Source: an uncultured Desulfomicrobiaceae bacterium
GTDB lineage: Bacteria; Desulfobacterota; Desulfovibrionia; Desulfovibrionales; Desulfomicrobiaceae
Assembly: GCA_937989665.1 (NCBI GenBank)
Contig: CALKRN010000005.1
Coordinates: 1-64,000 of the forward strand
Length of the DNA stretch: 64,000 bases
Direction of reading: 5' to 3'
Under the pieces are notes generated by a model. The model ran no database searches. It was not told the DNA's origin and saw nothing but the letters and a program-made list of their open reading frames with translations. A program made the position numbers and the translations under genes. The stretch's first letter is position 1, and every line of letters starts with the position of its first letter. Of the stretch, positions 549-46,330 are shown piece by piece.

Positions 549-1007
549 TCAGCTCCGAATTCCGGCGGTTAGCCCTTTGAAGCTCCCAGTCCAGCGATCC
601 CCCACCATATAGAGCCAGGTTGGGAGCATGGTTTCCTTTGTCCAGAGAGGGACCAGGACCCGTCTGTAAAGGCAGGGGCCGCCGGGGTGAAGCCCCTCCA
701 GCCGGTCGATGGCCGGAAGGCGGCTCTCGGGGTCGTCGAAGGTCAGAAGCTCCACGTACACGGGGCCCCAGGGTGCGCCTTCATATTGCGGATTGATGAT
801 TGTGGATTGCGGATTGAAAAGGCGGGCCGTCACGTGCGCTTGTGTGGCCACGTCGGGGAGTGGATTGGTGGTCCCGAGGACAATGACGTCCTCTTCTGGA
901 ACTTCCAGAGCCGGGACTCCGGAGGATGTCTCGAAGAGGCGGCCGCGGACCATAGCGTCCTCCACCGCGAGGGCGCCCCGGCAGAAGCGGTCGGGGTTCC
1001 AGAAACC
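549..1007 (-). pseudogene. Gamma-glutamylcyclotransferase (AIG2-like), 5'-truncated and carrying an inserted repeat
   Basis: The frame reads GFWNPDRFCRG from about 1007, then RGRLFE, ATQ, ELLTFDDPESRLPAIDRLEG, YRRVLVP and LYMVGDRW, a clear match to the bacterial gamma-glutamylcyclotransferase/AIG2 family, which forms 5-oxoproline from gamma-glutamyl amines. The family's N-terminal VYGTL substrate loop is missing: the homology ends at about 1007, exactly where a four-helix-bundle gene begins on the opposite strand. A second scar lies in the middle, where a copy of the ATTGCGGATT-type repeat (785-816) is translated in frame as NPQSTIINPQ. The only start left is GTG at 965, which would omit part of the fold. 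I treat it as a disrupted gene. Confidence 0.7.
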
Positions 1008-1363
1008 GCAACCTTCGCGATCAGGGTAATTCAGTTGGTGGAGGCGCTGCCGAAAAATCAGACCGCAAGTGTGATCGGAAACCAGCTACGCCGATGCGGC
1101 ACCTCGGTTGGTGCAAACTATGGCGCCGCCTGCCGCGCCAAATCTCCCCCCGACTTTGTCGCGAAGATGGCCATCGTCGAAGAGGAATGTGATGAGTCCA
1201 TCTACTGGATGGAACTGATCGTCGAAGCCGGATTGATGGATGAAAAGCGCCTGATCGAGCTGAAAAACGAGGCAATCGAGATCCTTTCCATGGTCGTCGC
1301 CTCCATAAAAACCGCACGCTCCCGCAAATAATCCGCAATCTCCAATCCAAAATCCGCAATTAC
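785..1363. mobile_element. Candidate S23/four-helix-bundle cassette bounded by inverted GGATTGCGGATT repeats
   Basis: The left arm at 785-816 contains ATTGCGGATT units on the plus strand, and the right arm at 1329-1363 contains the same units on the minus strand, so the arms are inverted. They enclose a four-helix-bundle protein remnant and part of a disrupted cyclotransferase gene. Repeats of this kind commonly sit next to S23-type four-helix-bundle genes in other bacteria (my recollection), which suggests a cassette that moves or recombines. No transposase or target duplication is visible, and the left arm lies inside the host gene rather than at the cassette edge, so the exact element limits are unclear. 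Confidence 0.4.
1011..1331 (+). pseudogene. Four helix bundle protein (S23/IVP family), 5'-truncated
   Basis: The translation FAIRVIQLVEALP, SVIGNQLRRCGTSVGANY, AACRAKSPPDFVAKM, IVEEECDESIYWMELI and SIKTARSRK is the S23/four-helix-bundle family found with 23S rRNA intervening sequences and, as Avd, with diversity-generating retroelements. Complete members have about 10-15 residues and a Met before the first helix. Here the frame continues upstream into antisense cyclotransferase sequence and no convincing start with a ribosome-binding site exists before Phe at 1014. The remnant stops at 1331, immediately before the right repeat arm. It might be expressed as a fusion from an upstream start, but truncation is the simpler reading. 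Confidence 0.65.
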
Positions 1364-4707: not shown

Positions 4708-5223
4708 ACACCTACCCCCGGCAGCAGGACCTCTCCGCCCTTCCAGGAACGGCCTAGGCATCTTTTTGCCGCTCATGGGCGACCGGCGCCCTTTCCTTGA
4801 GCAAGAGCCAGGTTTGGGTCGTGCACACAAGTCACCTGGCGTACACACCAATGGCTCTGCCCTTGAGCAATCGGCCCACGAAACCAGCGTCGCCATAACT
4901 CGCACTGCAAGTAGGCACCTTCTCCCGAAGGCCCGAGCCCCTGGAGGAGCTTTTGCCCGAGAGACTTGGGCGAGTGGGGGGCACCGGCACACCCCCTGCC
5001 AGAGCCGATGCCCTGCCTGCGAGGAAAGCCGCTGCACGGATCTTGGCCAGAGATTGGTCTTTCTCCATTACCGTAAGGCGTCGAGGCGGTGGATTCTCTT
5101 CGGCCAGAGAGGGGCTGACAGCGGCGAGCGGGCGTGGTTTGTCACCGTGCTGTTGCACTTTTGCCATCTCGCTGCACCTTTTCTGGAGCACTATGGGTCT
5201 CACGTTACGCGCAAGGAGGGGTC
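4708..5223. other. 516-bp intergenic region with inverted and direct repeats, no supported gene
   Basis: No frame shows recognisable protein. CCTTGAGCAA occurs at 4795-4804 and again at 4861-4870, 66 bp apart, and GAGCCA/TGGCTC and CCAGGT/ACCTGG inverted repeats between them could fold into a compound hairpin. I looked for a cobalamin riboswitch because of the chelatase gene but did not find its conserved core. The promoter of the following operon should lie at its right end. Confidence 0.4.
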
Positions 5224-7518
5224 ATGGACACGGGGGATGCACACGAGATGGTGGGACGGATTCGGACGGCGTTAGCCTATAGCCGCTTGGAAGACCTTCC
5301 TTTTACTTGGGAGGATGCCACAGCGGGCAGTGAGACCGAATTCCAGACAGCAGTAATTGGCCCACGGGGGCAGGTGGATTTGCCGCGGACGGTGCTTGAG
5401 TCGCGCTACGCCAAGGGATTGCGCCGTCGAGCCGCCTGTGGGGAATATCCAGCCCAGGTGTTGGCGGCCTTGGAGAAGGTGCTCGCGTCCGAGCCAGAAG
5501 GGGTGTGGGAAAACAGCTGGGTCCGGGTGCCGGTGGTGCGCCTTTCCCCTACGGCCCGGGAAGTCCTTGAGGAGGACTTGGCCGCGGACAAATCCGTGCC
5601 AGGCAGCCCCCGGCGGGGGGATGGCGAGAGTTTTTTTGTGTACGAGGAGGGGGAACAGTTGTTGCGCATCCCGGTAAGCTACCTCCTCAAATTGGCTTTG
5701 GCCCAGGCCATGGACGGCCCGTTACGCGGCGAAGCGCACTTGGCGCAGCGGTTGCTGCCGCACTTTTCCAATGACAACACCTCTCCAGAGACCTTTTCCT
5801 TTGCGCCCCAATCTTGTGCTGGGGGCGGGATGGCCGTGGCCCGGGAAACGTGCCTGCGCCAGCTCCTCTGTGAAGTCCTCGTGGAGTGGGCTGGGGTTGC
5901 CATGGGCCTGGAAGAGCGAGGCCAGCGGGTCATGGTGTATACTTCCCCGTTGCCGCCATGGAGGCAAAAGGCCCTCAATGCCGTGGTGCCGGATGCCTTT
6001 TACCGGGAACTTTTCATCAATCCGTGTTTGAGCGGCTGGGATCGAGGTGAAGAGAAAAAGGCTTACATGCACCTATGCCATGAAACCCTCTCCCGCAGCC
6101 AGCTCAACACCCTGGGCAAGCTCCGTGAAGCGGGCTTGCTGACACGCAATCTTGTCGTCCTTCCCAACACCTCAAGCACCTGTTTGGCGAATAATGGAAT
6201 CCACGTCTCCTTGGGGAGTCGGGTCCTCACTGGGGCGTTGGCTGCTGGCCTATTGCGTCCGCAGGAGGAAAAATGGGCCGCAGACTTGGTGGTGAAGATC
6301 GTGGAGCACTTTTTGCCGTTGTTTGTGGGTACCTACAGCGCGTCACCGTACCGTCTTGGGTTTGCGGACTTTCATCCTGAAACCGCACTTGGTTTCCTGC
6401 CTCATGAGCTGGACTTTACCCATTTACGCATGCTGTGGCGGCGGTGGAAAAAGAAGGCCAAGCTAAAGGTATTTGGCCGGCCGATTACACCCTTTGGACC
6501 ACCGGCCTTGGACCGAGTCCTGGCGCGCATCTTCCGCCTGCGCGGCGATCATGTCCCGGATTTTCGCCTCCTTGACTACATGACCTGCCTGATGAGCACC
6601 GAGTCAAGTCCGTGCCTCGACGGGACCTTGGGCAATGATGAGCGGCTGAAAGTCGAGCTCGCGGAACACGGCGTGTTCCATGCGGCCATGTCGACGTACC
6701 TCCTCTACAAGCCGCGTTTGTACGAGCGCATGGGGTTTAGCGGGTTTGAGGGCCGTTTTTACAGCCTGTTCCCCTCGTATGGGCACGATATGGCCCAGGC
6801 GGTGGAGCTCCAGCTGGTGGTCACGGCCATGGCCTGGTGGTTGGTGCTCGAAGGTCGTATAACCCACCAGATGATCCCGGATGCCCCACCCTGGGAAAGC
6901 GAACGCCGTCAGGCCTTTTTTGCTGCGGCCTTGGACGTGCCGACGGTGTTCGTTCGCCAGGACAGTGCCAACGCCTTTTTGTTGGGCATCATTGCCCGAA
7001 CCCAGGGCGTGCGCCCCAGCCGGCGCTATAGCGGCTACCTGCGGGTTCGTCTGCCGGATTTACGCCGGGCATTGGTCGATTTCCTCGAAAAAGAGGGGGC
7101 CGCGGTGGTGGAAGCCCTCGGCGCAGCGCCTATCCTCAAAGACCTGCGCATTCGGCTGGAGCATCCACCGGCGCGCGCTGTCCATCGGCTTACTGACTTG
7201 GTGATGCGCCGCTTGGGGGAAGAGAACCCGTTGGCAGTGGAGGCCGATGTGTTCAACCGTGCGGCCGAGGCCTGCTACCGGGAAGAGCTGCGTCTGGCCA
7301 CTCTGATGGAAGGGCTCCATTTTCTTGAATCAAGTTGCCAGCGGCTCGGACTAGGGCTGCCAGATGGCCGCGCCGTGGATTGGCTTGTGGAGCGGGCGTG
7401 TTCTGCCCTGCGCCAAGAAGGCCGTTTGGACATGGAGTCCTGCCGGTTGCTTTTGCCTGCCTTGGTGGCCGTGGCTGTCTGGGGGGCAGATCAAAAGGAG
7501 AGCCGCTATGCAGCATGA
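5224..7518 (+). CDS. Uncharacterised 764-aa protein heading a lipid-enzyme operon
   Basis: I do not recognise a family. The start is the ATG at 5224 behind a strong AAGGAGGGG. The protein lacks a signal peptide and long membrane helices, so it is probably cytoplasmic or peripheral. It has conserved-looking segments: VLPNTSSTCLANNG near 350, GTYSASPYRLGFADFHPE near 405, a basic RRWKKKAKLK stretch near 440, and PSYGHDMAQAVELQL near 550. The C-terminal 200 residues look helical. It overlaps the next gene by 11 bp, and that gene overlaps a third, so the three are almost certainly translated together. The partners are a phosphatidylserine decarboxylase homologue and an Lgt homologue, which suggests a role in phospholipid or lipoprotein chemistry (inference). 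Confidence 0.85.
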   Translation: MDTGDAHEMVGRIRTALAYSRLEDLPFTWEDATAGSETEFQTAVIGPRGQVDLPRTVLESRYAKGLRRRAACGEYPAQVLAALEKVLASEPEGVWENSWVRVPVVRLSPTAREVLEEDLAADKSVPGSPRRGDGESFFVYEEGEQLLRIPVSYLLKLALAQAMDGPLRGEAHLAQRLLPHFSNDNTSPETFSFAPQSCAGGGMAVARETCLRQLLCEVLVEWAGVAMGLEERGQRVMVYTSPLPPWRQKALNAVVPDAFYRELFINPCLSGWDRGEEKKAYMHLCHETLSRSQLNTLGKLREAGLLTRNLVVLPNTSSTCLANNGIHVSLGSRVLTGALAAGLLRPQEEKWAADLVVKIVEHFLPLFVGTYSASPYRLGFADFHPETALGFLPHELDFTHLRMLWRRWKKKAKLKVFGRPITPFGPPALDRVLARIFRLRGDHVPDFRLLDYMTCLMSTESSPCLDGTLGNDERLKVELAEHGVFHAAMSTYLLYKPRLYERMGFSGFEGRFYSLFPSYGHDMAQAVELQLVVTAMAWWLVLEGRITHQMIPDAPPWESERRQAFFAAALDVPTVFVRQDSANAFLLGIIARTQGVRPSRRYSGYLRVRLPDLRRALVDFLEKEGAAVVEALGAAPILKDLRIRLEHPPARAVHRLTDLVMRRLGEENPLAVEADVFNRAAEACYREELRLATLMEGLHFLESSCQRLGLGLPDGRAVDWLVERACSALRQEGRLDMESCRLLLPALVAVAVWGADQKESRYAA

Positions 7519-8533
7519 ATTTGTCTGTGCCACGGATGGGAGTGTGCGCAGCGAAACCCTCTTTTGTGACCGCGTCATCAGCTATCTCTACAACCGAGTC
7601 CGGGAACATGCCCCGAGCGTCATCAAGGCCTTGGCCTCAGGCCGCACAACGGCCTTGCTTGGGTTTTTCAACTACGATTTGCCGCTGGGGGCGCGGCTAT
7701 CGGGGGCGCGGCGGCTGGTAGAACGGTTGGGCATTGATTTGAATGAGTGCGTGGAGTCGCCTGAATTCTACACCACGCCGCGGCGCCTTTTTGAGCGGCA
7801 GATTCGCTATGAGACCTGCCGGCCCATGGATCCGAATCCTCAGGCCGTGGTCTCCCCTGCAGACGCCCGGGTGGTGGTGGGCTCGCTGGCCGAGACTTCC
7901 CACCTGTTTCTGAAAGATAAGTTTTTTTCTCTTGAAGACCTCGTGGGTGGGGTTTGGGCTCCCCGCTTTGCCGGCGGGGAGTTTGCCATCTTTCGCCTCA
8001 CCCCAGAAAAATACCATTACAATCATGTGCCTGTGGAAGGGAGGGTGGTGGACTTTTACGAGCTGGAAGGGGAGTTTCATTCGTGCAATCCAGCAGCGGT
8101 GGTGGCCATGGTGACGCCGTATTCTCGAAATCGGCGGGCGGTGACCATCATCGATACCGATGTGCCTGGGGGCAGCCAATGCGGCAACGTGGCCATGGTG
8201 GAGGTGGTTGCCCTCATGATTGGCCGCATCGAGCAGCGCTATGCGCCGCAGGGCTACCACCCGCACCAGCCGATGGCCCCCGGGGTGTGGCTCCGGCGTG
8301 GCCAGCCCAAGAGCCTGTTTTTGCCAGGCAGTTCGGTGGATGTCCTGCTTTTTGAACCGGGGCGAGTGGCCTTTAGTGAGGAACTCGTCCGCCACCAGCT
8401 GCGAGCCGATGTCCAGAGCCGGTTTTCGGCTTGGCTGGGTCGCCCATGGGTAGAAGTGGATGTACGAGTCCGTTCCACCTTGGGCTGGGCCCAGCCACAG
8501 CCAAAGGCTACGGTGGGAGGAAAAGAGGGATGA
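7508..8533 (+). CDS. Phosphatidylserine decarboxylase-like pyruvoyl enzyme
   Basis: The 341-aa protein shows the PSD pattern: FFNYDLPLG near the N-terminus, SPADARV with the charge-relay Asp, FAIFRLTPEKYHYNHVPVEG with the conserved His, and FLPGSSVDVLLF near the C-terminus. In PSDs the proenzyme cleaves itself before the Ser of an LGST-type motif to make the pyruvoyl group; here the site is GSS, a known variant. It is likely membrane-associated and decarboxylates phosphatidylserine or a related serine lipid. AAGGAG precedes the ATG at 7508. It overlaps the upstream unknown gene by 11 bp and the Lgt-like gene by ATGA, so it may be a dedicated paralogue rather than the housekeeping psd. Confidence 0.88.
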   Translation: MQHEFVCATDGSVRSETLFCDRVISYLYNRVREHAPSVIKALASGRTTALLGFFNYDLPLGARLSGARRLVERLGIDLNECVESPEFYTTPRRLFERQIRYETCRPMDPNPQAVVSPADARVVVGSLAETSHLFLKDKFFSLEDLVGGVWAPRFAGGEFAIFRLTPEKYHYNHVPVEGRVVDFYELEGEFHSCNPAAVVAMVTPYSRNRRAVTIIDTDVPGGSQCGNVAMVEVVALMIGRIEQRYAPQGYHPHQPMAPGVWLRRGQPKSLFLPGSSVDVLLFEPGRVAFSEELVRHQLRADVQSRFSAWLGRPWVEVDVRVRSTLGWAQPQPKATVGGKEG

Positions 8534-9561
8534 ACGCATGGCTTTGGCGGCTTGCCGCCGTGGCGGTGGTGGGGCTCGTGTGGTGGGCGTCGCGGGTCTT
8601 GGCGGGGGCGCGGTGGCAGGTGGCGGCCTGTATCCCGGTGCGTCAGCACGCGGATGGGACGTGGGAGGCAGTGAACCTTACCTGGTATGGGATTCTCAGT
8701 GCTGGGGCCTATACCCTGGCCGTGGCCATTGCCTTGGCCCTCGGTGCGGGGCTTGGGGCGAGCTTGGAGGCTATGCTCGCTATGGCGGCGGTGGTGCTGG
8801 CTGTCTGCATGCCAGCCTCGCGGCTGGTGGCGTGGCTGGTGGAGGGCAAGCGTGCCACCCTCACCGTTGGCGGAGCTGTCTTCGTGGCCTTATGGGTGAC
8901 TCCTGCGGTGGCGTGGATGGCGCAAACGTGGTGGGGTGGGGCCCCATGGCCTTCCACCCTGGCGGCTGTGGCCGTGGCCTACACGGTGGGTGAAGGGTTT
9001 GGACGGTTGGCCTGTTCCAGTTTTGGCTGCTGCTATGGCCGGCCAGTGGCGAGTCTCCCTGCGCCGTGGAACCGCTGGATGGCGCCCATTGCCGTGCGGT
9101 TCTGGGGTCCCACCAAAAAGGTGGCCTATGCCAGCGGTCTGGAAGGGGTGCCTTTGGTGCCTATCCAGGGGATGACCGCTGTGGTGCATGGCCTCGTGGC
9201 GTGGGGAGGCATCGAGGCCTTGGTGGATGGGCATGTGGGTCTTGCCTTGGTATTCGGCGGTGTGCTGCCGCTTTTGTGGCGAGTGGCCTCAGAGTTTCTG
9301 CGGGCCGATTACCGGGGAGAGGCGCGCTTTTCGGCCTACCAGCGCATGGCCTTGGTGGGGGCGGCATGGGTACTGCTGGTCGCCTGGTGGGCGCCGACCA
9401 TTGCGGTGTCTTTTGATGCTGGCACAGCTGGGGAAGCCGTGCGCTCGCCAGCGGGCCTGGCCACACTGGCCCTCGTCTTTGCCGTGAGTTTGATCTATAC
9501 CGGCATCAGCCAAGTGACGGCCGCCCGGGTCTCGTTGTGCGTGCGCCTGGAGCGCATCTAA
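8530..9561 (+). CDS. Lgt-like prolipoprotein diacylglyceryl transferase homologue
   Basis: The 343-aa polytopic membrane protein has an N-terminal TM helix, then LTWYG, matching the YG of the Lgt first helix. GEGFGRLACSSFGCCYGRP is the Lgt-signature region (GRxGN...YG in classical Lgt, GRxGCFxxGCCYG in the variant subfamily), and SEFLRADYRG aligns with the EFFR segment holding an essential Arg. Lgt moves diacylglycerol from phosphatidylglycerol to a lipobox Cys. The double Cys in the signature marks a divergent branch whose acceptor may differ. The start ATG at 8530 overlaps the PSD-like stop by 4 bp. Housekeeping lgt is normally found elsewhere, so this is probably a specialised paralogue (inference). 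Confidence 0.82.
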   Translation: MNAWLWRLAAVAVVGLVWWASRVLAGARWQVAACIPVRQHADGTWEAVNLTWYGILSAGAYTLAVAIALALGAGLGASLEAMLAMAAVVLAVCMPASRLVAWLVEGKRATLTVGGAVFVALWVTPAVAWMAQTWWGGAPWPSTLAAVAVAYTVGEGFGRLACSSFGCCYGRPVASLPAPWNRWMAPIAVRFWGPTKKVAYASGLEGVPLVPIQGMTAVVHGLVAWGGIEALVDGHVGLALVFGGVLPLLWRVASEFLRADYRGEARFSAYQRMALVGAAWVLLVAWWAPTIAVSFDAGTAGEAVRSPAGLATLALVFAVSLIYTGISQVTAARVSLCVRLERI

Positions 9562-12154: not shown

Positions 12155-13519
<1,365 letters not shown>

Positions 13520-13521
13520 AG

Positions 13522-14727
13522 CTACTCGTAGGACAGGGGTTGTTCAAGGGGCAAGCGGACACGAAACACGGCGCCGTGGCCAGGCTCGCTGCACACGGTA
13601 ATTTCGCCGCCATGCTGTTGGATGATGCCATAGCAGATGGATAGGCCGATGCCGATGCTATGGCCCTGGGTTTTGGTGGTGAAAAAGGGCAAGAACAGTT
13701 TGTCCATGATACCCGGTGGGATGCCGTGACCGTCGTCTTCCACGGCGAGGATGGCGTGCGCCCCTTCGGCGTAGGCGCGCACGGTGATGGTGCCTTTGGG
13801 CCGTACGGCGTCGAAGGCGTTGAGGACGAGGTTCACAAGTACTTGTTTGAGTTCGCTCGGGTCGCCTGCGATGGGGAGGCGAAGCGGGGCAAGGTCCTGA
13901 ACGAGCTGCACACCAGGTTCTTCTTTGATCTTGTGGCTCAAGATTTTGAGGGTATCGCGGACCAATTGGACGAGGTCGAGCCGCTGACCGGTACAGGCCC
14001 GCTGGCGGCTAAAGGAGAGAAGCCCGAGGACAATGTCACGGCAGCGGCTGCACTCTTCGACAATAATGCCAATATATTCAGTGAGGTCTGTCACCAAAGG
14101 GTCCGCCTCACCCAGGCGTTGCCGCAGTTGGGGGAGCCGGCGTCCTAGGGCCTCGGCAAAGCCGCTGATGGAGGCCAGTGGATTGTTGATTTCATGGGCG
14201 ACACCCGCTGCGAGCATGCCGATAGTCGCCATTTTCTCAGCTTGCGTGTACTTGGCCTGGTATTCCTTTTCTAGGGTGACATCGCGCTTGGTGAGAAGCA
14301 CCCCACAGGTGGTCCCGTGGGGATCGCGGATGGGGGCCGTGACGAGCTCAAAGTGGATGGTGGAGTCGCCGCGACGATCGAGGTAGGTGACTCGGTCTGG
14401 TTTGCCCGTGGCGAGGGTTGTCTGCACCGGGCAGCCGACGCATGGTTCCGGGCTGCGGCGGAAGACGTCGTGACAACGTTTTCCCTGAGGCTGGGGGTCG
14501 TCAAAATAGCGAAAAAAGACCGGGTTGACGTATTGGATACGGAGGTCTGGGGAGATGACGGCAAGCACATCGCTAATTCCGTCGAGAATGCTTTGGATCT
14601 CCTGTTTTTTGCGCTCCAGTTCTTCGGTGTAGGCCTGGAGTTGGGCCATTTTTTCTTGAACATCCCGGAAAAAGCCGAGCTTGGTATATTCCGGGCCAAC
14701 GATGTCCATGAGCGAAGGCGTCATCAC
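13522..14727 (-). CDS. PAS-containing sensor histidine kinase (NtrB/AtoS type)
   Basis: The 401-aa protein has an N-terminal coiled coil (about 20-45), a PAS domain (ILDGISDVLAVISPDLRIQY) with a CVGCP motif near 97, HisKA (GMLAAGVAHEINNPLASISG, phospho-His near 176) and HATPase_c (NLVLNAFDAV, DDGHGIPP, SIGIGLSI). There is no membrane span, so it senses a cytoplasmic signal, perhaps a redox or aldehyde cue through the PAS Cys pair (inference). It lies 2 nt from the regulator gene and overlaps the dehydrogenase gene by 4 bp, making it the obvious partner of the NtrC-type regulator. Its start and the dehydrogenase stop share ATGA. Confidence 0.93.
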   Translation of the reverse strand: MMTPSLMDIVGPEYTKLGFFRDVQEKMAQLQAYTEELERKKQEIQSILDGISDVLAVISPDLRIQYVNPVFFRYFDDPQPQGKRCHDVFRRSPEPCVGCPVQTTLATGKPDRVTYLDRRGDSTIHFELVTAPIRDPHGTTCGVLLTKRDVTLEKEYQAKYTQAEKMATIGMLAAGVAHEINNPLASISGFAEALGRRLPQLRQRLGEADPLVTDLTEYIGIIVEECSRCRDIVLGLLSFSRQRACTGQRLDLVQLVRDTLKILSHKIKEEPGVQLVQDLAPLRLPIAGDPSELKQVLVNLVLNAFDAVRPKGTITVRAYAEGAHAILAVEDDGHGIPPGIMDKLFLPFFTTKTQGHSIGIGLSICYGIIQQHGGEITVCSEPGHGAVFRVRLPLEQPLSYE

Positions 14728-15866
14728 CAGGCCTCCTGGCAGATGGAAAGAAGGTCGTTGGCAGAGGCGGGTCGAGGGTTCGTTAGAAGGCAGGCATCCC
14801 GGGCGGCCATGGCGCAGATCTGCTGGAAGTCTTCGGCTCCGGGCACGATGTCCGAGAGGCGGGAGGCGGTCCCCAGAGTGCGGAAGAAATCTTCCAGCCA
14901 GATGATGCCTGCTTCGGCAGTGGCTTCGTCACTGGCGCGTCGTCCACCGAGAATGACCTCGCCGATGTCGGCCATGCGGGTCGTGCAGGCCGGGAGATTG
15001 AAACGCATGACCCGAGGCAGGATGATGGGATGGACCTCGCCGTGGGGGGTGTCGAAGAATCCCCCCAGCGAATGGGCAATGGCATGGCAGGCGCCGAGAC
15101 TGGCGTTACTGAAGCTGATCCCGGCGGCGGTGCTCGCCAGGGAGAGGCGTTCGAGGTCTTCTGGGTTGCGGGTACGAAGGGCTCGGGGGAGGTGCCGGGT
15201 AATGAGACGAATGGCATTGAGAGCATGGGTCTCGGTGAGGGGGTGGGCAAGGGGCGAAAGGTAGGACTCGACCGCATGGGCGAGGGCGTCCACAGCCGAG
15301 GTGATGAGCAAGTGGTCCTCCACGGTGTCGAGGAGGTCAGGGTCGATAATGGACACGTTGGGGGTGAGGGAGCGGCTGATGATGGACATCTTCACCCGCC
15401 GTTTGGTGTCGGTGATGATGGCAAATTGGGAGACATCGGAGCCACTGCCAGCAGTAGAAGGCAGGAGGATGAGGGGGGGCAAGGGGCGGGTGATGCGGTT
15501 GGCCCCTTCGTAGTCATGGATGGTGCCGCCATTGGCTACCACCGCCGCGATCCCTTTGGCGGTATCCATGGGGCTGCCCCCGCCAAGGGAGACGATGACG
15601 TCCGCGCCGCTTTCACGGTAGAGGGCTACGCCAGCCTCGATGTGGATATCCCGTGGGTTGGAATAGACCTGGTCGAAATAGATTGTTTCTAGGTTGGACT
15701 TTTCTAAAATGTCGAGAAGGAGATCTACCCACCCGCACCGCTCAAGCCCCTGGTCACTGACAACAAGGACTCGTTTCCCACCGAGTTGGAGTGCATAGGA
15801 GCCGGTGTAGCGGATACTGCCGTGACCAAAGATAATTTCAGGGAGAGAGAACTTGCGGATATCCAT
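14724..15866 (-). CDS. Iron-containing alcohol dehydrogenase
   Basis: At 380 aa this is a full group III alcohol dehydrogenase: SLGGGSPMDTAKG (NAD pyrophosphate loop), PSTAGSGSDVS, and iron ligands in SAVDALAHAVE, GACHAIAHSLGG and DTPHGEVH. It interconverts primary alcohols and aldehydes with NAD(H) in the cytosol. A CGAGG precedes the ATG. It is the promoter-proximal gene of the ADH-kinase-regulator operon, about 22 nt from the predicted sigma-54 start site. It is clearly related to, but quite diverged from, the plus-strand dehydrogenase, so the two may differ in substrate. Confidence 0.95.
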   Translation of the reverse strand: MDIRKFSLPEIIFGHGSIRYTGSYALQLGGKRVLVVSDQGLERCGWVDLLLDILEKSNLETIYFDQVYSNPRDIHIEAGVALYRESGADVIVSLGGGSPMDTAKGIAAVVANGGTIHDYEGANRITRPLPPLILLPSTAGSGSDVSQFAIITDTKRRVKMSIISRSLTPNVSIIDPDLLDTVEDHLLITSAVDALAHAVESYLSPLAHPLTETHALNAIRLITRHLPRALRTRNPEDLERLSLASTAAGISFSNASLGACHAIAHSLGGFFDTPHGEVHPIILPRVMRFNLPACTTRMADIGEVILGGRRASDEATAEAGIIWLEDFFRTLGTASRLSDIVPGAEDFQQICAMAARDACLLTNPRPASANDLLSICQEAW

Positions 15867-15898
15867 GGATGCCTCGCAGAAGAGAGTGGAGAGCCTCT

Positions 15899-15915
15899 AG
15901 CAAGGGGTATGCCTT
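15899..15915 (-). promoter_or_regulatory. Sigma-54 (-24/-12) promoter of the ADH-kinase-regulator operon
   Basis: On the minus strand AAGGCATACCCCTTGCT has GG and GC dinucleotides exactly 12 bp apart and fits GGCAC-N5-TTGCW well. The predicted start is near 15888, 22 nt before the ATG. The encoded regulator is sigma-54 dependent, which supports the call. Confidence 0.72.
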
Positions 15916-16003
15916 CATGCTAGAAGTGGCGCTTTTCTTTATGAAGAGGAAAACGTCTTTTCCGGGGATCGTATCAAAAGAATACAGTTGCCTCCCTATG
16001 GAT

Positions 16004-16019
16004 TGGCATGGGTGTGCCA
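16004..16019. promoter_or_regulatory. Palindrome TGGCA-N6-TGCCA, candidate activator binding site
   Basis: A perfect 5+5 inverted repeat lies between the two divergent sigma-54 promoters, about 120 bp upstream of the minus-strand start and about 225 bp upstream of the plus-strand start, distances typical of enhancer sites for NtrC-type activators. Its GG-GC spacing (11) is wrong for a promoter. Confidence 0.5.
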
Positions 16020-16133
16020 TTTTGCCGCAAACGCCTGTGCTTCTTTTAGGTACAGGAGAAGAGGCCGAAAATGTATCTTTATGATTCATATGGGAGCACC
16101 TTGAGGGGAACCGTTAGGGAGATGTTGCTGAGG

Positions 16134-16157
16134 TTTTCAGAAAAATGCTTTTGAAAA
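16134..16157. promoter_or_regulatory. Inverted repeat TTTTCA-N12-TGAAAA upstream of the plus-strand ADH
   Basis: A perfect 6+6 inverted repeat sits about 75 bp upstream of the predicted plus-strand sigma-54 start. It could be a second regulator or IHF-type site; nothing decides between them. Confidence 0.35.
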
Positions 16158-16205
16158 TCAAGCCACTGGTTTGAAGAATCCCCGAAGAAGCGCAGGGAGA
16201 TGGTG

Positions 16206-16222
16206 TTGGCCCAAGCCTTGCC
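16206..16222 (+). promoter_or_regulatory. Sigma-54 (-24/-12) promoter of the ADH-peptide-AOR operon
   Basis: TTGGCCCAAGCCTTGCC has GG (16208) and GC (16220) 12 bp apart and matches TGGC-N8-TTGC. Predicted start is near 16233, giving a leader of about 64 nt with a CGCCGA/TCGGCG hairpin at 16255-16270. Confidence 0.75.
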
Positions 16223-16296
16223 TAAGAAGAGGCATCTCCATCATTGTAACTGTTCGCCGAGCCTTCGGCGGACCCAACCACAAGCGAGGTGTTCTC

Positions 16297-17478
16297 ATGG
16301 CTGTTCAGGAAATGGTGTACGGGTTCTTTATCCCCAGCGTAACCCTTATCGGCGTCGGTGCCTCGAAGTTCATTCCGGAAAAAATTAAGGCACTCGGAGG
16401 CAAGAAGCCTCTGGTGGTGACGGACAAGGGCATTACGGCCTGTGGACTCACCAAACAAATCACCGACCTGTTGGATGCCGCGGGGATGGAGTATGCGGTG
16501 TATGATGAGACTGTACCCAACCCCACTGACCACAACGTCCATCAGGGTGTCGAGGTCTTCAAGAGCAAGGGCTGTGACTCTCTCATTTCGCTCGGTGGCG
16601 GCTCTTCCCATGACTGCGGCAAAGGCATTGGGCTTGTGGTCTCCAATGGTGGAAAGATCCACGATTACGAGGGAATCGATAAGTCCTCCAAGCCCCTGCC
16701 GCCGTATTTGGCCGTTAATACCACCGCAGGCACAGCCTCAGAAATGACCCGGTTCTGCATTATTACGGATACGAGCCGCAAAGTGAAAATGGCCATTGTG
16801 GACTGGCGGGTGACCCCTGGCATGGCTATCGATGACCCCCTGCTCATGGTGGGCATGCCGCCGGCGCTCACTGCGGCCACGGGTATGGATGCCCTCACCC
16901 ATGCGGTAGAGGCCTACGTTTCCACCATCGCCACCCCCATGACCGATGCTTGCGCCCAGAAGGCCATTGAGCTCATCGCCAAGTATCTCCGCAAAGCCGT
17001 GGCGAACGGCAAAGACATCGAAGCCCGTGAGGGGATGTGCTTTGCCCAGTATCTGGCGGGCATGGCGTTCAACAATGCGAGCCTCGGCCACGTCCATGCC
17101 ATGGCCCATCAGCTGGGTGGCTTCTACGACCTGCCCCATGGCGAGTGCAATGCTATCCTCTTGCCGCATGTGTCTCGTGCCAACATGAATGCTAAACTCG
17201 AGCGCTTTGTTGACATCGCCCGTTTCATGGGCGAAGTGGTGGACGGAATGTCGATGCGCGCTGCGGCGGAAAAGGCCATTGCCGCTATCCAGCAGTTGTC
17301 CACTGACGTGGGGATCCCGCCCACCATCACTGAGCTGGCGAAGCGCTATGGCAAGCAGGTGGACCGCAAGGACATTGCCATCATGACAGCCAATGCGCAG
17401 AAGGATGCCTGCGGTCTTACCAATCCCCGCTGCCTGAAGGACGCCGATGTGGCCGCTATTTTCGAGGCCGCTTTCTAG
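16297..17478 (+). CDS. adh: Iron-containing alcohol dehydrogenase
   Basis: The 393-aa protein has SLGGGSSHDCGKG, NTTAGTASEMTRF, and iron-binding TGMDALTHAVEA, GHVHAMAHQLGG and DLPHGECN, all intact group III signatures. It resembles the highly expressed ethanol dehydrogenases of Desulfovibrio (recollection). I chose the ATG at 16297, with GAGGTG upstream, over earlier frame extensions. A sigma-54 promoter and leader hairpin precede it; a 36-codon gene, a hairpin and AOR follow, so alcohol is probably oxidised to aldehyde here and to acid by AOR. Confidence 0.96.
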   Translation: MAVQEMVYGFFIPSVTLIGVGASKFIPEKIKALGGKKPLVVTDKGITACGLTKQITDLLDAAGMEYAVYDETVPNPTDHNVHQGVEVFKSKGCDSLISLGGGSSHDCGKGIGLVVSNGGKIHDYEGIDKSSKPLPPYLAVNTTAGTASEMTRFCIITDTSRKVKMAIVDWRVTPGMAIDDPLLMVGMPPALTAATGMDALTHAVEAYVSTIATPMTDACAQKAIELIAKYLRKAVANGKDIEAREGMCFAQYLAGMAFNNASLGHVHAMAHQLGGFYDLPHGECNAILLPHVSRANMNAKLERFVDIARFMGEVVDGMSMRAAAEKAIAAIQQLSTDVGIPPTITELAKRYGKQVDRKDIAIMTANAQKDACGLTNPRCLKDADVAAIFEAAF

Positions 17479-17488
17479 GAGTTGGGAT

Positions 17489-17599
17489 ATGTGGGACGAT
17501 GATGCTGACCTGCACCTTGAATCCACAGATTTAAGCGCAATAATTGGAGCCGATGAAATGCTGAGAGGCGTTGTGGATGATGTGTGGGATGAAGAGTGA
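17489..17599 (+). CDS. 36-aa strongly acidic small protein between ADH and AOR
   Basis: An ATG at 17489 with AGGAG 7 nt upstream opens a 36-codon frame ending in TGA at 17597-17599. The product starts MWDDDADLHLE and ends VVDDVWDEE, with 13 Asp/Glu, one Arg, one His and two Trp. It begins 10 nt after the dehydrogenase stop and lies before the terminator-like hairpin, so it would be expressed with adh. Placement, ribosome-binding site and biased composition favour a real gene. Function is unknown; a partner or regulator of the dehydrogenase, or a metal-buffering peptide, are possibilities only. Confidence 0.6.
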   Translation: MWDDDADLHLESTDLSAIIGADEMLRGVVDDVWDEE

Positions 17600-17623
17600 T
17601 CATCGCGTTGGAGAGGTAACATT

Positions 17624-17659
17624 CCAACAGGGTCGGGTTCCCCGGCCCTGTTGGTGTTT
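17624..17659 (+). terminator. Hairpin terminator or attenuator between ADH and AOR
   Basis: CCAACAGGG (17624-17632) pairs perfectly with CCCTGTTGG (17646-17654), with extra pairing inside, followed by TGTTTG. The U-tract is poor, so partial read-through into AOR is likely. Confidence 0.75.
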
Positions 17660-17704
17660 GAGGGCCATTATGTACAAAAAGACAGGATAGCCGTGGAGGG
17701 AAGC

Positions 17705-19426
17705 ATGAAGATTTTGCGCATCAATACTCGCTCGCGTACGTATCGCTTTGAAGATTTGGGAGAGTATGCCGGTCTCGGTGGCCGGGCCCTCACTTCCCGC
17801 ATTATCAACCGCGAAGTGCCGGCAGATTGCCATCCGCTGTCGGCGGAAAACAAAATCGTTTTGGCGGCAGGTATCCTCGCCCCCACCACGGCGGCCAACT
17901 CGGGCCGGATGTCTGTTGGGGCCAAGTCGCCGTTGACTGGCGGCATCAAAGAGAGCAACTCAGGTGGTCAGTTTGCCAACACCCTGCCTAAACTTGGCCT
18001 TTTGGCCATTGTGCTCGAAGATAAACCCGAAGCTGGTAGCCCGATGATGGACATTGTCGTGCGTCCGGATCGGGTGGAGTTCCACGACAGCGTGGCTGCT
18101 GGGATGCGCACGTATGCGGCCCAGGAAAAGCTCCTCGCGACCTATGGCAAAGAGATGGTCACGGCGATGGTAGGCCCTGCCGGGGAGCAATGCCTCTCTG
18201 CTGCCACGGTACAGTTCTCGGATCCAGACGGTTTGCCCTCGCGTTCGGCCGGTCGTGGTGGCATGGGCGCGGTCATGGGCTCCAAACGGGTCAAGGCCAT
18301 TCTTCTTGATAGTACGGCGGCTCAGAAAGTGGAATATGCTGATGAAGAAGGGTTCAAGGCCGCTCGCAAAGAGTGGGTGGATATCATGCGCAACCATCCG
18401 GTAACCAGCCAGGGGCTGCCTGGGTTTGGGACCGCAGTCCTCGTGAACGTCATCAATGCCGCCGGGGCCCTGCCCACCAAGAACTTCCGTTTCGGCCAGT
18501 TTGCCGGTGCCGAAAAGATCTCTGGCGAGACCCTTGCCGAGACGATCACCAAGCGGGGCGGCAAGACCAAGCATGGCTGCCACTCGGGCTGCATGATCCA
18601 GTGCTCGCAGGTGTACCATGACAAAGACGGCAAGTACCTCACCACCGGCTTTGAGTACGAAACCATTTGGGGTTTTGGCGCGGACCTCATGGTGGAGGAC
18701 CTCGACGACATCGCCATGATGGACCGCACCTGTGACGAGGTCGGCATGGACACCATTGAGATGGCCAACACCATGGCCATGGCCATGGAGGCGGGCATCA
18801 TCAACTGGGGCGACGGCAAGGCCGTCATCCGCGAGCTCAATAAAGTCGGTACCGATGACCCCTTGGGCCGCATCTACGGTAATGGCACGGCCTACACGGC
18901 CAAGGCCTTTGGCGTGGACCGGGTTCCGGTGGTCAAAAACCAGGCCTTGCCGGCCTATGATCCGCGGGCGGTGAAGGCAGTCGGCGTCACTTATGCCACG
19001 AGCCCCATGGGCGCGGACCACACCGCTGGTTATGGGGTGGCCCAGAACGTCCTCAAGGTGGGCGGCGATGTGGATGGCCACAAGAAAGAGGGCAATGTGG
19101 AGATTTCTAAAAATCTGCAGGTAGCCACGGCGGCCATCGACTCCTTGGGCCTGTGTCTGTTCGTCGCCTTTGCCGTTCTTGATGATGCCCGCGGTGTCCC
19201 GTGCATGGCCAAGATGGTGGAGACGTACACCGGCAAGCCCTTCTCGGTGGATGACCTCATCGCCTTGGGCGCCAATTGCCTCAAGGATGAGCTCGATTTT
19301 AATCGCCGCGCCGGCTTCACCCCAGAGGACGACCAGCTGCCACGCTTCTTCCAGACCGAGACCCTGCCGCCGCACAATGTAGGCTGGGGATATACTGTGG
19401 AAGAACTCCAGGGGGCCAAGGTCTAA
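17705..19426 (+). CDS. aor: Aldehyde:ferredoxin oxidoreductase (tungsten type)
   Basis: The 573-aa protein matches the AOR family from MKILRINTR to the end: GLGGRALTSRI, SPLTGGIKESNSGG (pterin loop), GRGGMGAVMGSK, and the 4Fe-4S ligands CHSGCMIQC with a late fourth Cys in LGANCLKDE. It oxidises aldehydes to carboxylic acids in the cytosol, reducing ferredoxin at a tungsto-bispterin centre. The ATG at 17705 has GGAGG upstream. It lies downstream of the sigma-54-controlled dehydrogenase, giving a two-step alcohol-to-acid route. It is somewhat shorter than archaeal AOR (about 605 aa), and the FOR/GOR-like or WOR5-like branch cannot be excluded. Confidence 0.95.
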   Translation: MKILRINTRSRTYRFEDLGEYAGLGGRALTSRIINREVPADCHPLSAENKIVLAAGILAPTTAANSGRMSVGAKSPLTGGIKESNSGGQFANTLPKLGLLAIVLEDKPEAGSPMMDIVVRPDRVEFHDSVAAGMRTYAAQEKLLATYGKEMVTAMVGPAGEQCLSAATVQFSDPDGLPSRSAGRGGMGAVMGSKRVKAILLDSTAAQKVEYADEEGFKAARKEWVDIMRNHPVTSQGLPGFGTAVLVNVINAAGALPTKNFRFGQFAGAEKISGETLAETITKRGGKTKHGCHSGCMIQCSQVYHDKDGKYLTTGFEYETIWGFGADLMVEDLDDIAMMDRTCDEVGMDTIEMANTMAMAMEAGIINWGDGKAVIRELNKVGTDDPLGRIYGNGTAYTAKAFGVDRVPVVKNQALPAYDPRAVKAVGVTYATSPMGADHTAGYGVAQNVLKVGGDVDGHKKEGNVEISKNLQVATAAIDSLGLCLFVAFAVLDDARGVPCMAKMVETYTGKPFSVDDLIALGANCLKDELDFNRRAGFTPEDDQLPRFFQTETLPPHNVGWGYTVEELQGAKV

Positions 19427-29428: not shown

Positions 29429-32400
29429 TTAATCAGAACTGCGTTCGAGCCAGTAGAAAACGCCACTCTTGAAGGGCAGGGGCATGGCGAGTTCCACCGT
29501 GGCGATGGCGCCGGTGCTGGTTTGGATAAAAGCCGTGCCTTTGCTTTTTTCTCCCACATGGATGTTCGGCGTCAGGGCAAGTCCTTTGCCGAGGTCCACA
29601 GCGACTGCGAAGGGATCTTCGGCATTGCTTAAGATGGGGATGTAGTAGGGGGTCCCGGTCGTGTAGTATACGGCATAGAGTCGGCTTCTTCCTTCAATCT
29701 CGCACGGGTCTTCGCTGGGGATATAGCTTGTAAAGAGGACAGTCCCTCCTAAGACTGCGGCTTGGCCGAGGACCCGCTCCAATGGCTGGCCCGGAAAACT
29801 GCGTTCCCAACCGGGTTTGGAGTTCGCCAGGGTGACCATTGCGTCCCACGTGAGGGTGGTGTTCGTACTCCCTTCTGTTTTGATGACCTGAACGCAGGAC
29901 TTGGTAAATTGGCTCCCGCATGTGGCATTGGCGAGGGTGATTTGCGTGCTGTTGAATAGGTCGAGGGGATTAACGCTTTCCCAGGTTGTTGTGGCACTGG
30001 CTTTGGGTTCTTTGATGCCATAAAACGACATGCTTTGGGTCTGTTGGATGTCGTTACGGGTAAAGAAACGTCCACTGCCTGCATATACCCAGATGTTCTG
30101 CTCCGCATCCAAGGCTACGGAGGCGGCTGCTGCAAATGGTTTGCCCGCACTAAGAAGCGTCGCATTGCCGATCCAGGTCACCAGATTCGATGTCTCTTGG
30201 GTGTTGTTGGTGACGAGGCGATAGAGTTTTCCTGTGGCGTTGTTTGGGTCGCCAGCGATCGTTCCATAATAGATGACATCGGCCTTGAATTCTTTGGTGG
30301 GATCATTGGTGCCGACATCGAGATCAATGGCGATGGGATCACCTATAAAGGACCCAGGCTCGGTTCTGGCAAAAAATGACGTGGCATTGGAGAAAAACGA
30401 CCCGGTGTTGTCGAGGACCCGGAGAGATTTGCGGCTGACAAGTTCTTTGAGGTCCACGACAAAGAGGGCTCCCGGTTGATCGCTCGTCGCGAGATTGATT
30501 GTTGCTGGATCGGGCTCCCCGGCGGCGTTGGCAGGGCCGGAACCAAAGACGAGATACCAATTGTTGTCCGCGGAGGAGTTGGCGTTGGGGGTGGTCATGG
30601 GCATGACGGTGGGATAGCTCGTCGTAAATCCCATGTTGGGGAGGCGGATCTCGGCCAGGGGTTTGGGGCCCTGCTCGGGGTCGGTGACGTCGAAAACGAC
30701 ATAGGCCGAGCCCATAATGCGGTCTGTGGCATTGTCGAAGGAGGGCGTCCCTGTCTTGTCGAGGTCGGCCCGGATCGTGCCGCCGCCAAAACGCATACCG
30801 GCGACGAGGACGGTTCCCCAGCCGTCCGGATGGGTGGCGTTATCGTCAGGGGTGATCCCATCAGGTTGGAAAAAGATGCGAGCATCGAAGACACGTGGCT
30901 TGAGATCCATGTAGGAGACGTGGAGTTGGCGGCCATAGGAGGGATCCATGAGCCAATACAAGTGGGGAAGGAGATTGTAGGGGATGTAGGCCCAAAGCTC
31001 GGCCCCGAGGTCAAATTGGGCCTTGTCTGCCCAGGAGGTATCAAAGCCTTTGCGGGTACTGTTGTAAAACCCGGCGTTGAAGGCGTGGAACATGCCATCA
31101 TTGGCACCAACATAGACGACGTTGCGCCGATTTTTGTATTGTTCCACAAAACGCTGGTAGGTTTTATCTTTGTAGATTACGTGGTAGTTTTCCGCAGGCC
31201 TTCCCACGACAGTGGGGGTTGAGAAGACAACATCCCCAAGACGCCAGGTTAATGCAGTAGCATTTTCTACGTATCTTCGGCTGCGGGATGCGTTGACCGC
31301 AATTCCAGCAATTGTGCCGGCGTGTTGATCTGCTCCCCGAATAAAATCGACTTGGCGTTGGGCGAGGCCTTCCAGGAGGGAGGCAAAAGTACTTGGGTTG
31401 CTTGTGCGCAAGGTATTATACGCTGTGGGAGTGTGTTCAAAAGAGGGGTATAGCGTGAGATACGCATAGAAATCGGTCGAATTGGTAAGGCCTGGAGAAT
31501 AAGAATTGTCTGGTGGCCATTTAAAGTGTTGCAGTTCTCCGGAATCAACAATCCCATTGGCATTTTTATCGGCGAACGTGACAATATAACGATTGGGTGT
31601 TGTTGCATTGTAAAATGAACGCTGGGCAACCACAGAAGAGTCATCGATGGTGTTGAACCATGCCGTGGATGTCCAAATATAGCGAACATCAAATGGATTG
31701 TTGAGTAACTCTATGGTTGCATTCTGTTCGTCCGGGTCAAGTTTCCCATTGCCATTGCTATCTGTATAGCGAAAGATATTGAGTTCTTGATAGCGAATGA
31801 TTTTATCGTGCTGCAAATCAAGTTGTTGATTGCCGTTGGTATCCTCCCGGATGTTACCCTGTGGATCGACGAGAAGGGCGTGGACTTGTCCCGCCCAATT
31901 GATCGTGTTGCCCGCTTCATCGCGGAACTCTGGGAAAAAGATGGATTGATAGACCGCTCCTTCGCCTTCTCTGGATTGCGAAATAACGGAGGCTGCAGAT
32001 CCTGATGCAGTCCTGCGGAGAATATCGGCAAAAGCTTTATTGAGCTGTTCTTCGAGTCTTGTTGGATTGGCCACATAAAAGTAGGTATCCGGAATTCCAT
32101 CGTTGTTTTTGTCCCATTCCGTCGTTGCGTCTGGTATATTGTTATTATTGCTATCTTCGAACCCACCCCATTTGGCTGCGTACCAAAGAGGCGTTTTGAG
32201 GAGGCTCGCCCCCGCCGTTGCCCCAGGCGTAAAGAAGTGGGTTGCGGTCAGCGGCAATGGCCCTGGGTCATTCGGGACGTCGAGGTAGTAGTTCGGATCG
32301 CTGCCTTCCGGCGTATCTTTATCGCGAACAACGAGATACGTGCCATCAGCCGTTGTTCCGGAGATGATGTACCCCATATGTTGGATGATGCTTCCAGCTG

Positions 32401-34816: not shown

Positions 34817-34820
34817 GGAC

Positions 34821-35105
34821 TCACCTCCCTTCGATTTCCAAAGCATAAATACGAAATCCTTCTTTTTGAATACGAACCCGCGTTTTTGGAGTGAGTAAAT
34901 AGACTCGATCCGGGACCTCGTGCCATCCGTTGTCGTGTTTGATTCGGGCTGTTTGCACAAAGACATAGCGTATCCCGTCCACTTCTATCTGGTGGCCTCC
35001 CAGATCATGCCAGGCAGATTTGGTTACCGTCCCTTGGCTCCACGATATCGCCCCAAGGGGACTGCTCAGGAGCAGGAGCAGTACGATGACGGAAAGAATC
35101 TTCAT
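34821..35105 (-). CDS. Small exported protein between pilX and pilY1
   Basis: This 94-aa frame begins at the ATG at 35105 with an obvious signal peptide (MKILSVIVLLLLLSSPLGA) and continues as a small beta-rich protein (ISWSQG, HQIEVDGIRYVFVQTARI, VYLLTPKTRVRIQKEG). Its stop is 4 nt before pilY1, and the pilY1 ribosome-binding site lies within its last codons. Pseudomonas has a small pilY2 next to pilY1; by position this may be a functional analogue, but I see no sequence similarity I can name. A longer start at 35147 would bury the signal peptide. Confidence 0.75.
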   Translation of the reverse strand: MKILSVIVLLLLLSSPLGAISWSQGTVTKSAWHDLGGHQIEVDGIRYVFVQTARIKHDNGWHEVPDRVYLLTPKTRVRIQKEGFRIYALEIEGR

Positions 35106-45247: not shown

Positions 45248-46330
45248 TTAGCGCTGGTCCCACTGGGGGCGTTCGAGCCACAAAGGATCGCCGACGCCCT
45301 GACGAAAGGCATCCAAGGCAGCACGAGAAGAGTTCGCCCGTAGGTTGGAGTGCCGGCCATCGGCATTTTCCCAACGTTCATGCCAAAAGACTGCCCCCAT
45401 GAGCCGGGGGTATTCCCGTGGCAAGAGGAAGAGGGCCTCGCGCAGATAGGCTGCTTTGTCTCCAGACTTTGGGAATTCCCCCACCCCCCATTCGGCGAGG
45501 AGGACTGGTTTGTCGGGGTGGATGGCTGCTAGCGGGCCGTAGAAGGGGTCGATGGTCTTTCGGAAAGGCACCCACCCGCCGGGACCAGGGTATTGTTTGC
45601 CGTAGGCGCTCATGGCGAGGACATCGACGTAGGCGCTGCCTGGGTCATAGGCAGCAGGTTGGTTCCAGGGTTCGTCGGGGTTCGAGGTGTTGTTGACGTG
45701 GAAGACCCAGCGGATGTTGGTCGCCCCGCACGCCCGGGCGAGGTCTACTACGTGGCGGTAGGCGCGGATAAAGGCGTCTGGGCCCGCCCAAGCAGACAGG
45801 GCATCAGGGCGGGCACACGGTGTGCCAGCGCCATGGAAGAGGCCAGACCAAGGGAACCATTCTCCATTCATCTCGATGCCAAAGGCCACCAGCAGGGGAC
45901 GGCGGGTGGCAGCAGCGGCGGTGGCCCAGCGGCGGATATAGTCGTCGTGCTGGCCAGCGATGATGGCATGCAGAGTATACGGGTTGGCGGCCTGAAGGCC
46001 CGGGAAAGGGTATTCCCATGGCGACCAGTAGATGAGGGGCACGGAGCCCCGGGCATGGGCCACGCGCACTTGATCTGTGGGGAAGGTCTTCTTCCCCCAG
46101 TAGCTTGAGAAGGCAAGGATAGCCACGCGCTTGCCCACCATGGTTTCAAAGGCCTCGACTCCTTCGTGGGAGACATCGTCTTCTGCTGGGCCAGCGTCGA
46201 TATACGCGCCAAAATAGATCCCCTGGGAGGGGATGGCCAAGGAGACCCCTTCGGGGATCGGTTCTGCCATGAGCGCTTTGGCGATCACAAGCGCAGCTGC
46301 GCAGGTGAGGAGACGAAGAGAGAGGCTCAT
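45248..46330 (-). CDS. Exported GH26-like beta-mannanase-type glycoside hydrolase
   Basis: The 360-aa protein has a signal peptide (LRLLTCAAALVIAKALMA) and a TIM-barrel of the GH26 type. FGIEMNGEWFPW holds the acid/base Glu of the usual HEMNGxWxxW motif, although the preceding His is Ile, and PVLLAEWGVGEFP supplies the nucleophile Glu. GH26 enzymes cut mannans and related beta-glycans. Its start overlaps the upstream synthase stop (ATGA), so it may trim or release the polysaccharide that this synthase makes. Confidence 0.83.
   Translation of the reverse strand: MSLSLRLLTCAAALVIAKALMAEPIPEGVSLAIPSQGIYFGAYIDAGPAEDDVSHEGVEAFETMVGKRVAILAFSSYWGKKTFPTDQVRVAHARGSVPLIYWSPWEYPFPGLQAANPYTLHAIIAGQHDDYIRRWATAAAATRRPLLVAFGIEMNGEWFPWSGLFHGAGTPCARPDALSAWAGPDAFIRAYRHVVDLARACGATNIRWVFHVNNTSNPDEPWNQPAAYDPGSAYVDVLAMSAYGKQYPGPGGWVPFRKTIDPFYGPLAAIHPDKPVLLAEWGVGEFPKSGDKAAYLREALFLLPREYPRLMGAVFWHERWENADGRHSNLRANSSRAALDAFRQGVGDPLWLERPQWDQR

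Follow-up and report, generated by a model that had tools for sequence, protein, structure and literature searches.

In a 64,000-nucleotide window of contig CALKRN010000005.1 from a Desulfomicrobiaceae bacterium (the window being the whole stretch analyzed, to which nucleotide positions refer unless another locus or contig is named), we identified a strictly conserved operon of three genes, here termed A, B, and C and together the trio, which combines a probable remote relative of glutamate-cysteine ligases with one protein resembling phosphatidylserine decarboxylase (PSD) and another resembling Lgt. We consider the chances roughly even that the trio forms a dedicated pathway for membrane-lipid head groups, probably linked to phosphate scarcity, which would supply a phosphorus-free aminolipid in place of a phospholipid. 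Each enzyme comes from a known superfamily, and no described pathway combining A, B, and C is known to us; no account of the trio was found in the open literature searched, most subscription journals lying outside that search. The locus has the following layout.

5213..5219, + strand: Shine-Dalgarno sequence AAGGAGG of gene A, read directly from the sequence
5224..7518, + strand: gene A, 764 aa, predicted soluble; most likely a new family with the glutamate-cysteine ligase/carboxylate-amine ligase (GS) fold, predicted ATP-dependent amide ligase
7508..8533, + strand: gene B, 341 aa, pyruvoyl-dependent PSD-like protein (PS_Dcarbxylase, 1.3e-38)
8530..9561, + strand: gene C, 343-aa membrane protein with an Lgt-like core; nine membrane segments and a cytoplasmic active site predicted

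A conserved operon apart from the housekeeping genes

All three open reading frames lie on the + strand, with overlaps of 11 bp between A and B and 4 bp between B and C, and a purine-rich Shine-Dalgarno-like stretch stands immediately 5′ of each. These coordinates agree with the initial annotation, which had described three overlapping genes at 5224-9561, among them a PSD homologue with an intact GSS pyruvoyl site and a divergent Lgt; both family assignments were borne out, by the PS_Dcarbxylase match and the PGSS at B residues 273-276 for the former and by a marginal LGT match of C (5.8e-5), with relatives of C reaching 2.6e-12, for the latter. Conservation of the trio in relatives, a check set beforehand, was also found: the order A-B-C on one strand was kept in all 58 loci, from several phyla, with more than 3.5 kb 3′ of A. 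Such agreement goes far beyond chance. The loci were compiled from one scan plus whole-genome searches, a few of them being repeat copies of one genome. The scan yielded 37 loci encoding A at 48-75% identity, in Desulfobacterota, Nitrospinae, Victivallales, and others.

Protein A was present in 32 of 297 Desulfobacterota genomes (~11%; one of the 32 having a fragment only); the Nitrospina phylum had it in 5 of 77 genomes and the Victivallales phylum (Verrucomicrobiota) in 3 of 195. C-type proteins likewise occurred in 32 of the 297 Desulfobacterota genomes, namely the 31 with full-length A and one more. In the window's own order, 10 further genomes were sampled and none carried the trio, and a search of plasmids with A gave no match. 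Cultured carriers of A-type loci include Desulfosarcina widdelii, Desulfatibacillum alkenivorans, Desulfocarbo indianensis, and a Desulforhabdus sp. A few loci have insertions in the operon: a DksA/TraR-type gene separates B from C in loci of Syntrophaceae and close relatives, and a 4.8-kb stretch with a GT4 glycosyltransferase gene interrupts the trio of locus L147. No small conserved substrate gene was found accompanying the trio loci. Collectively, the trio is patchy in distribution but inseparable. As a side observation, the DksA/TraR zinc-finger gene (L016, 3611-4042; L018, 4780-5187) could perhaps place the operon under stringent-response control.

The canonical psd and lgt, whose presence in the same genomes the initial annotation had proposed to check, were both found elsewhere in this genome, with a second psd on contig C16 (3.4e-46) and a second lgt on contig C15 (1.1e-58), both outscoring the trio copies in an assembly of 2.13 Mb that is 86% complete. 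The idea that the trio simply provides the housekeeping psd and lgt, which has only homology in its favor, is rejected because of these further copies, and we regard it as practically out of the question. The same arrangement was seen more widely: the trio PSD was present in all 29 trio genomes and a further psd in 27 of them, all but G297 and G302, whose assemblies measure 1.8 and 2.4 Mb, and a separate strong lgt was found in 28 of the 29, all except G302.

Families and conserved residues of the three proteins

Searches of Pfam and NCBIfam with protein A came back empty, no PDB sequence matched it significantly, and nothing matched it in a viral structure library. An initial 27-row AF2 model of protein A from the window reached a pLDDT of 69 and showed no clear fold. 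A family model from 58 homologues reached a pLDDT of 90.7 and a pTM of 0.93; its first row was the protein of locus L009, and the window protein, 51% identical to the L009 protein, was among the rows. In Foldseek, the leading PDB matches of this family model all fell in one superfamily: the glutamate-cysteine ligases of Francisella and Escherichia coli (probabilities 0.98, 0.99, 0.84-0.94, and 0.72) and PafA (0.87-0.89), with E-values of 0.02-0.22 for the GCS and PafA matches to the GS fold; yeast glutamate-cysteine ligase matched more weakly (0.21). Strand by strand, the motifs of this superfamily are GhExE (strand 1), acidic residues (strands 2 and 3), [HD]x[NH] (strand 4), an arginine (strand 5), and Ex[RK]x2D (strand 6) (Iyer et al. 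2008, PMC2588565). The counterparts in A are as follows, with invariance counted in 58 sequences.

5326..5340, + strand: A residues 35-39, GxExE (strand 1); G35, E37, and E39 invariant
5773..5790, + strand: A residues 184-189, DNTSPE (candidate acidic strand residues); D184 and E189 invariant
6202..6210, + strand: A residues 327-329, H-x-S (strand-4 motif, usually HxN/H); H327 invariant, S329 in 55 of 58
6352..6354, + strand: A Arg377, candidate strand-5 arginine; invariant, its L009 equivalent R375 lying on model strand 374-376
6748..6756, + strand: A residues 509-511, E-x-R (strand-6 motif); E509 and R511 invariant, on L009 model strand 505-511

The motif residues stand in the right order, and the counterparts of E37/E39, E189, H327, R377, and E509/R511 fall within model strands, that of GxExE on L009 strand 22-29 with Ser or Thr often at the "h" position. 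Placing D184/E189 and R377 on particular core strands is our own reading of the model, and these are candidate assignments. Compared with glutamate-cysteine ligases (GshA/GCS) and PafA, A thus shares the Foldseek fold and the GxExE, acidic, His, Arg, and ExR elements in the same order, whereas it is longer (~790 versus ~500 aa), has no detectable sequence similarity to them, and deviates at two motif positions, with S329 for the usual Asn/His of strand 4 and S514 for the Asp of strand 6. The large soluble protein that the initial annotation could not place still lacks a sequence-family match, but because of the fold match and the invariant motifs, the modeled protein most likely represents a new, divergent family within the glutamate-cysteine ligase/PafA superfamily and acts as an ATP-dependent amide ligase. 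Separately, gamma-glutamyl cyclotransferase (GGACT/AIG2) genes were noted less than 5 kb from the trio in L144 (5273-5722, - strand) and L148 (5919-6392, - strand, reverse-complemented locus), a possible clue to the ligase chemistry of A.

Protein B scored 133 bits against PS_Dcarbxylase (cut-off, 22), and its family profile aligned to E. coli PSD at 1e-17.

8324..8335, + strand: B residues 273-276, PGSS self-cleavage/pyruvoyl site; invariant in 28 sequences

Besides G274-S275-S276, the Asp of the SPAD motif (D119) and H173 were invariant in the 28 sequences, and both His of the YHxxH motif were kept, the second invariant and one in 27 of 28. Self-cleavage to a pyruvoyl enzyme is therefore expected, given the invariant SPAD Asp, second YHxxH His, and GSS. 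The domain and all of these sites are shared with E. coli PSD (6l06/7cnw), from which B differs in having YHYNH in place of YHRVH; B also scored below every NCBIfam PSD equivalog cut-off. Given these two features, its substrate may be different from phosphatidylserine. The housekeeping psd of the trio genomes are mostly of a shorter type, whereas B is of the long type. A tree of B showed one broad family and, with a single distant psd included, gave little information on origin. In two genomes, a third PSD-family gene was seen no more than ~8 kb away from the trio, at G276:C47:102753-103370 (L091) and G308:C221:12371-12988.

The marginal LGT match of C in the window (23.0 bits) fell just under the cut-off of 24.9, and most of its relatives exceeded that cut-off. 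Aligned by hhalign with the canonical Lgt of the trio genomes, C gave a weak alignment score, with motifs that paired well.

9001..9039, + strand: C residues 158-170, GRLACSSFGCCYG, counterpart of the Lgt signature GRLGNFINGELWG; R159 = R143, C162 = N146, C167 = E151
9280..9303, + strand: C residues 251-258, R-x3-E-x2-R, counterpart of Lgt R239, E243, and R246; invariant in 26 sequences

R159, C162, C167, C168, and G170 were invariant in the 26 sequences, so that C shares with E. coli Lgt the glycines of the signature region and the counterparts of R143, R239, E243, and R246, and differs from it in having three invariant Cys in the signature. In the E. coli Lgt structure, R143 and R239 form part of the lining of the phosphatidylglycerol-activating pocket, and H103 was proposed to lie at the site of the lipobox peptide, H103 and E151 mutants being inactive (PMC4728403). 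The residues of the phosphatidylglycerol donor side were kept in 26 of 26 members (R159, R251, and E255, equal to R143, R239, and E243), whereas the position of His103 in the HGGL motif (C position 119) was never His in the 26 and those of Asn146 and Glu151 were occupied by C162 and C167 in all of them. Judged by these residues, C keeps the donor half of Lgt and has an altered acceptor half.

C also differs from Lgt by having one additional hydrophobic segment at either end, and its charge pattern is reversed. Its loops carry ~22 Lys and Arg on the active-site side versus ~2 on the opposite side, whereas the basic clusters of canonical Lgt (RRRK, YARRF, LARRF, and the KKK tail) lie opposite to the active-site side. 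Applied to these loop charges, the positive-inside rule predicts that C has its active site on the cytoplasmic face, opposite to that of Lgt, a position that would put it on the same side as soluble A and PSD-like B.

Neighborhood, proposed pathway, and rival readings

Neighboring genes were counted in 49 trio loci that were 12 kb or longer and in 40 control loci around the canonical psd and lgt of trio genomes. Genes of the pst/phoU group stood beside 16 of the 49 trio loci versus 1 of the 40 controls (Fisher p=2.5e-4), and GT4 glycosyltransferases of two types beside 10 versus none (p=0.002). For the 20 trio loci from the control genomes themselves, the corresponding Pst/PhoU count was 5 versus 1 of 40 (p=0.013), and any of Pst/PhoU, GT4, or olsF was found at 11 of the 20 versus 1 of 40 (p=5e-6), the controls having had no systematic genome-level scoring for olsF. 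The association with Pst is seen again in lineages far apart, including Syntrophaceae, L021, Desulforhabdus (L142), and L138 of the Victivallales phylum. In addition, olsF was present in 7 of 31 trio genomes and lay 3-12 kb from the trio in three of these seven. The sulfate reducer Desulfovibrio alaskensis replaces phospholipids under phosphate limitation via Agt and OlsF, which make lipids free of phosphorus (PMC5193443). The trio resembles the Agt glycolipid and OlsF ornithine lipid system of strain G20 in that the organisms are similar and its loci carry Pst/PhoU, GT4, and olsF genes; it differs in that the enzymes are unrelated, its presence is independent of olsF, and it is absent from the 10 order-mates sampled. 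The notion that olsF is a mutually exclusive substitute for the trio was discarded, no anticorrelation being seen (7 of 31 trio genomes versus 47 of 266 other genomes, p=0.47). We also noted recurrent ~820-aa proteins beside the trio, PHP-like in the N-terminal half and a GT4 glycosyltransferase in the C-terminal half (L147, 12541-14991, reverse-complemented locus with A on the + strand; L007, 4906-7401, - strand), which are possibly glycolipid synthases.

The computational results establish the strict conservation of the operon, the families and conserved residues of its proteins, and the enrichment of Pho and glycolipid genes nearby. From these we infer the enzyme activities, the orientation of C, the step order, substrates, product, and regulation of the simplest pathway that uses all three proteins. 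C would transfer the diacylglyceryl group of phosphatidylglycerol to a cytoplasmic acceptor derived from an amino acid, with glycerol phosphate released and recovered; B, as a pyruvoyl enzyme, would strip the carboxyl group from the amino-acid head, as PSD does in converting phosphatidylserine to phosphatidylethanolamine; and A would build or extend the head group through an ATP-driven amide bond of the glutamate-cysteine-ligase type. Cysteine is a substrate of glutamate-cysteine ligase and also the residue with which Lgt makes a thioether; by this analogy, a cysteine-based head group would be an attractive candidate. A bolder version, to which we give rather low credence, holds that the product is a new lipid class: an inverted Lgt would join the diacylglycerol of phosphatidylglycerol to a cytoplasmic amino acid such as cysteine or serine; B would decarboxylate the resulting thioether or ether analogue of phosphatidylserine to a phosphorus-free analogue of phosphatidylethanolamine, while the A-type ligase builds or caps the head.

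Several results weigh against a phosphate-linked lipid pathway. The inverted orientation of C is based solely on hydropathy and the positive-inside rule, and the fold match of A is remote, with E-values of only 0.02-1.1 and query TM-scores of 0.28-0.33. The hhalign comparison of A with GCS2 profiles was not significant, while pairing TAGSETEFQ of A with TLGIEIEVQ of GCS2 at the right place. The neighbor classes were picked after the trio loci had been viewed, which makes the above p-values optimistic, and pst/phoU genes were near none of two thirds of the trio loci, including the window's own. Finally, no pho-box enrichment was detected upstream of A in a scan that used an E. coli-type pho box and in which the PstS positive control was also weak.

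The enzymes and their neighbors also bear on other readings. Since A resembles peptide-forming ligases, the trio could modify a soluble metabolite, a cofactor, or an envelope polymer by gamma-glutamyl-type chemistry, with C merely anchoring the product in the membrane and no bulk lipid being made; the cyclotransferase genes of L144 and L148 would fit, and the GT4 neighbors could serve polysaccharide synthesis. We find this unlikely, as two of the three enzymes are lipid enzymes, the Pst/PhoU and olsF neighbors suggest phosphate and lipids, and the cyclotransferase occurs in only 2 of 68 loci. The GT4 enzymes, which adjoin the trio and in L147 lie within it, might instead indicate extra phospholipid turnover, in which C frees diacylglycerol from phosphatidylglycerol for glycolipid synthases and B makes phosphatidylethanolamine from phosphatidylserine under special conditions. 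Lgt slowly hydrolyzes phosphatidylglycerol to diacylglycerol in crystals (PMC4728403), but most trio loci have no GT4 gene nearby and such turnover leaves no role for A, the most conserved and inseparable part, making this reading distinctly improbable.

The initial annotation had proposed a dedicated lipid or lipoprotein modification pathway and did not anticipate a connection to phosphate. Its lipid part is retained, as a pathway apart from the housekeeping psd and lgt, both of which lie elsewhere in the genome, and conserved across phyla. Its lipoprotein part, a second modification pathway in which C lipidates special proteins, could draw on the Lgt-like core of C and on PafA, a fold relative of A that ligates a protein tag. 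We consider it very improbable: C is without H103, N146, and E151, two of which inactivate E. coli Lgt when mutated (H103 and E151), its predicted orientation is opposite to that of Lgt, with the active site on the cytoplasmic side, where lipoprotein signal peptides are not processed, and no conserved small substrate gene travels with the trio.

Other features of the window and implications

Elsewhere in the window, four regions were noted by eye. The region 12155-19426 contains a pair of genes like iron-type alcohol dehydrogenases and one like aldehyde:ferredoxin oxidoreductases, which adjoin a sigma-54-type response regulator and a histidine kinase, an arrangement resembling an alcohol-oxidation unit. 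An 1845-aa protein like PilY1-type pilus tip proteins is encoded at 29429-34966 (- strand), and a polysaccharide-deacetylase/glycosyltransferase fusion with a glycosidase-like protein at 45248-49631 (- strand) suggests an exopolysaccharide system. The C-terminal part of the product of 687-1331 (+ strand) is like the four-helix-bundle "S23 ribosomal intervening" protein.

Phosphorus-free lipids are common in phosphate-poor anoxic settings, and their origin is often obscure. If the proposed head-group pathway is correct, the trio would add a lipid pathway for anaerobes of such settings, and a lipoprotein-transferase fold would have been inverted in the membrane and put to use in small-molecule lipid synthesis. 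Protein A would also give the glutamate-cysteine ligase superfamily a new family, one that sequence databases do not recognize. The cultured carriers make the idea directly testable, and if the product is a new lipid class, the trio would be more than another phosphorus-sparing lipid system.

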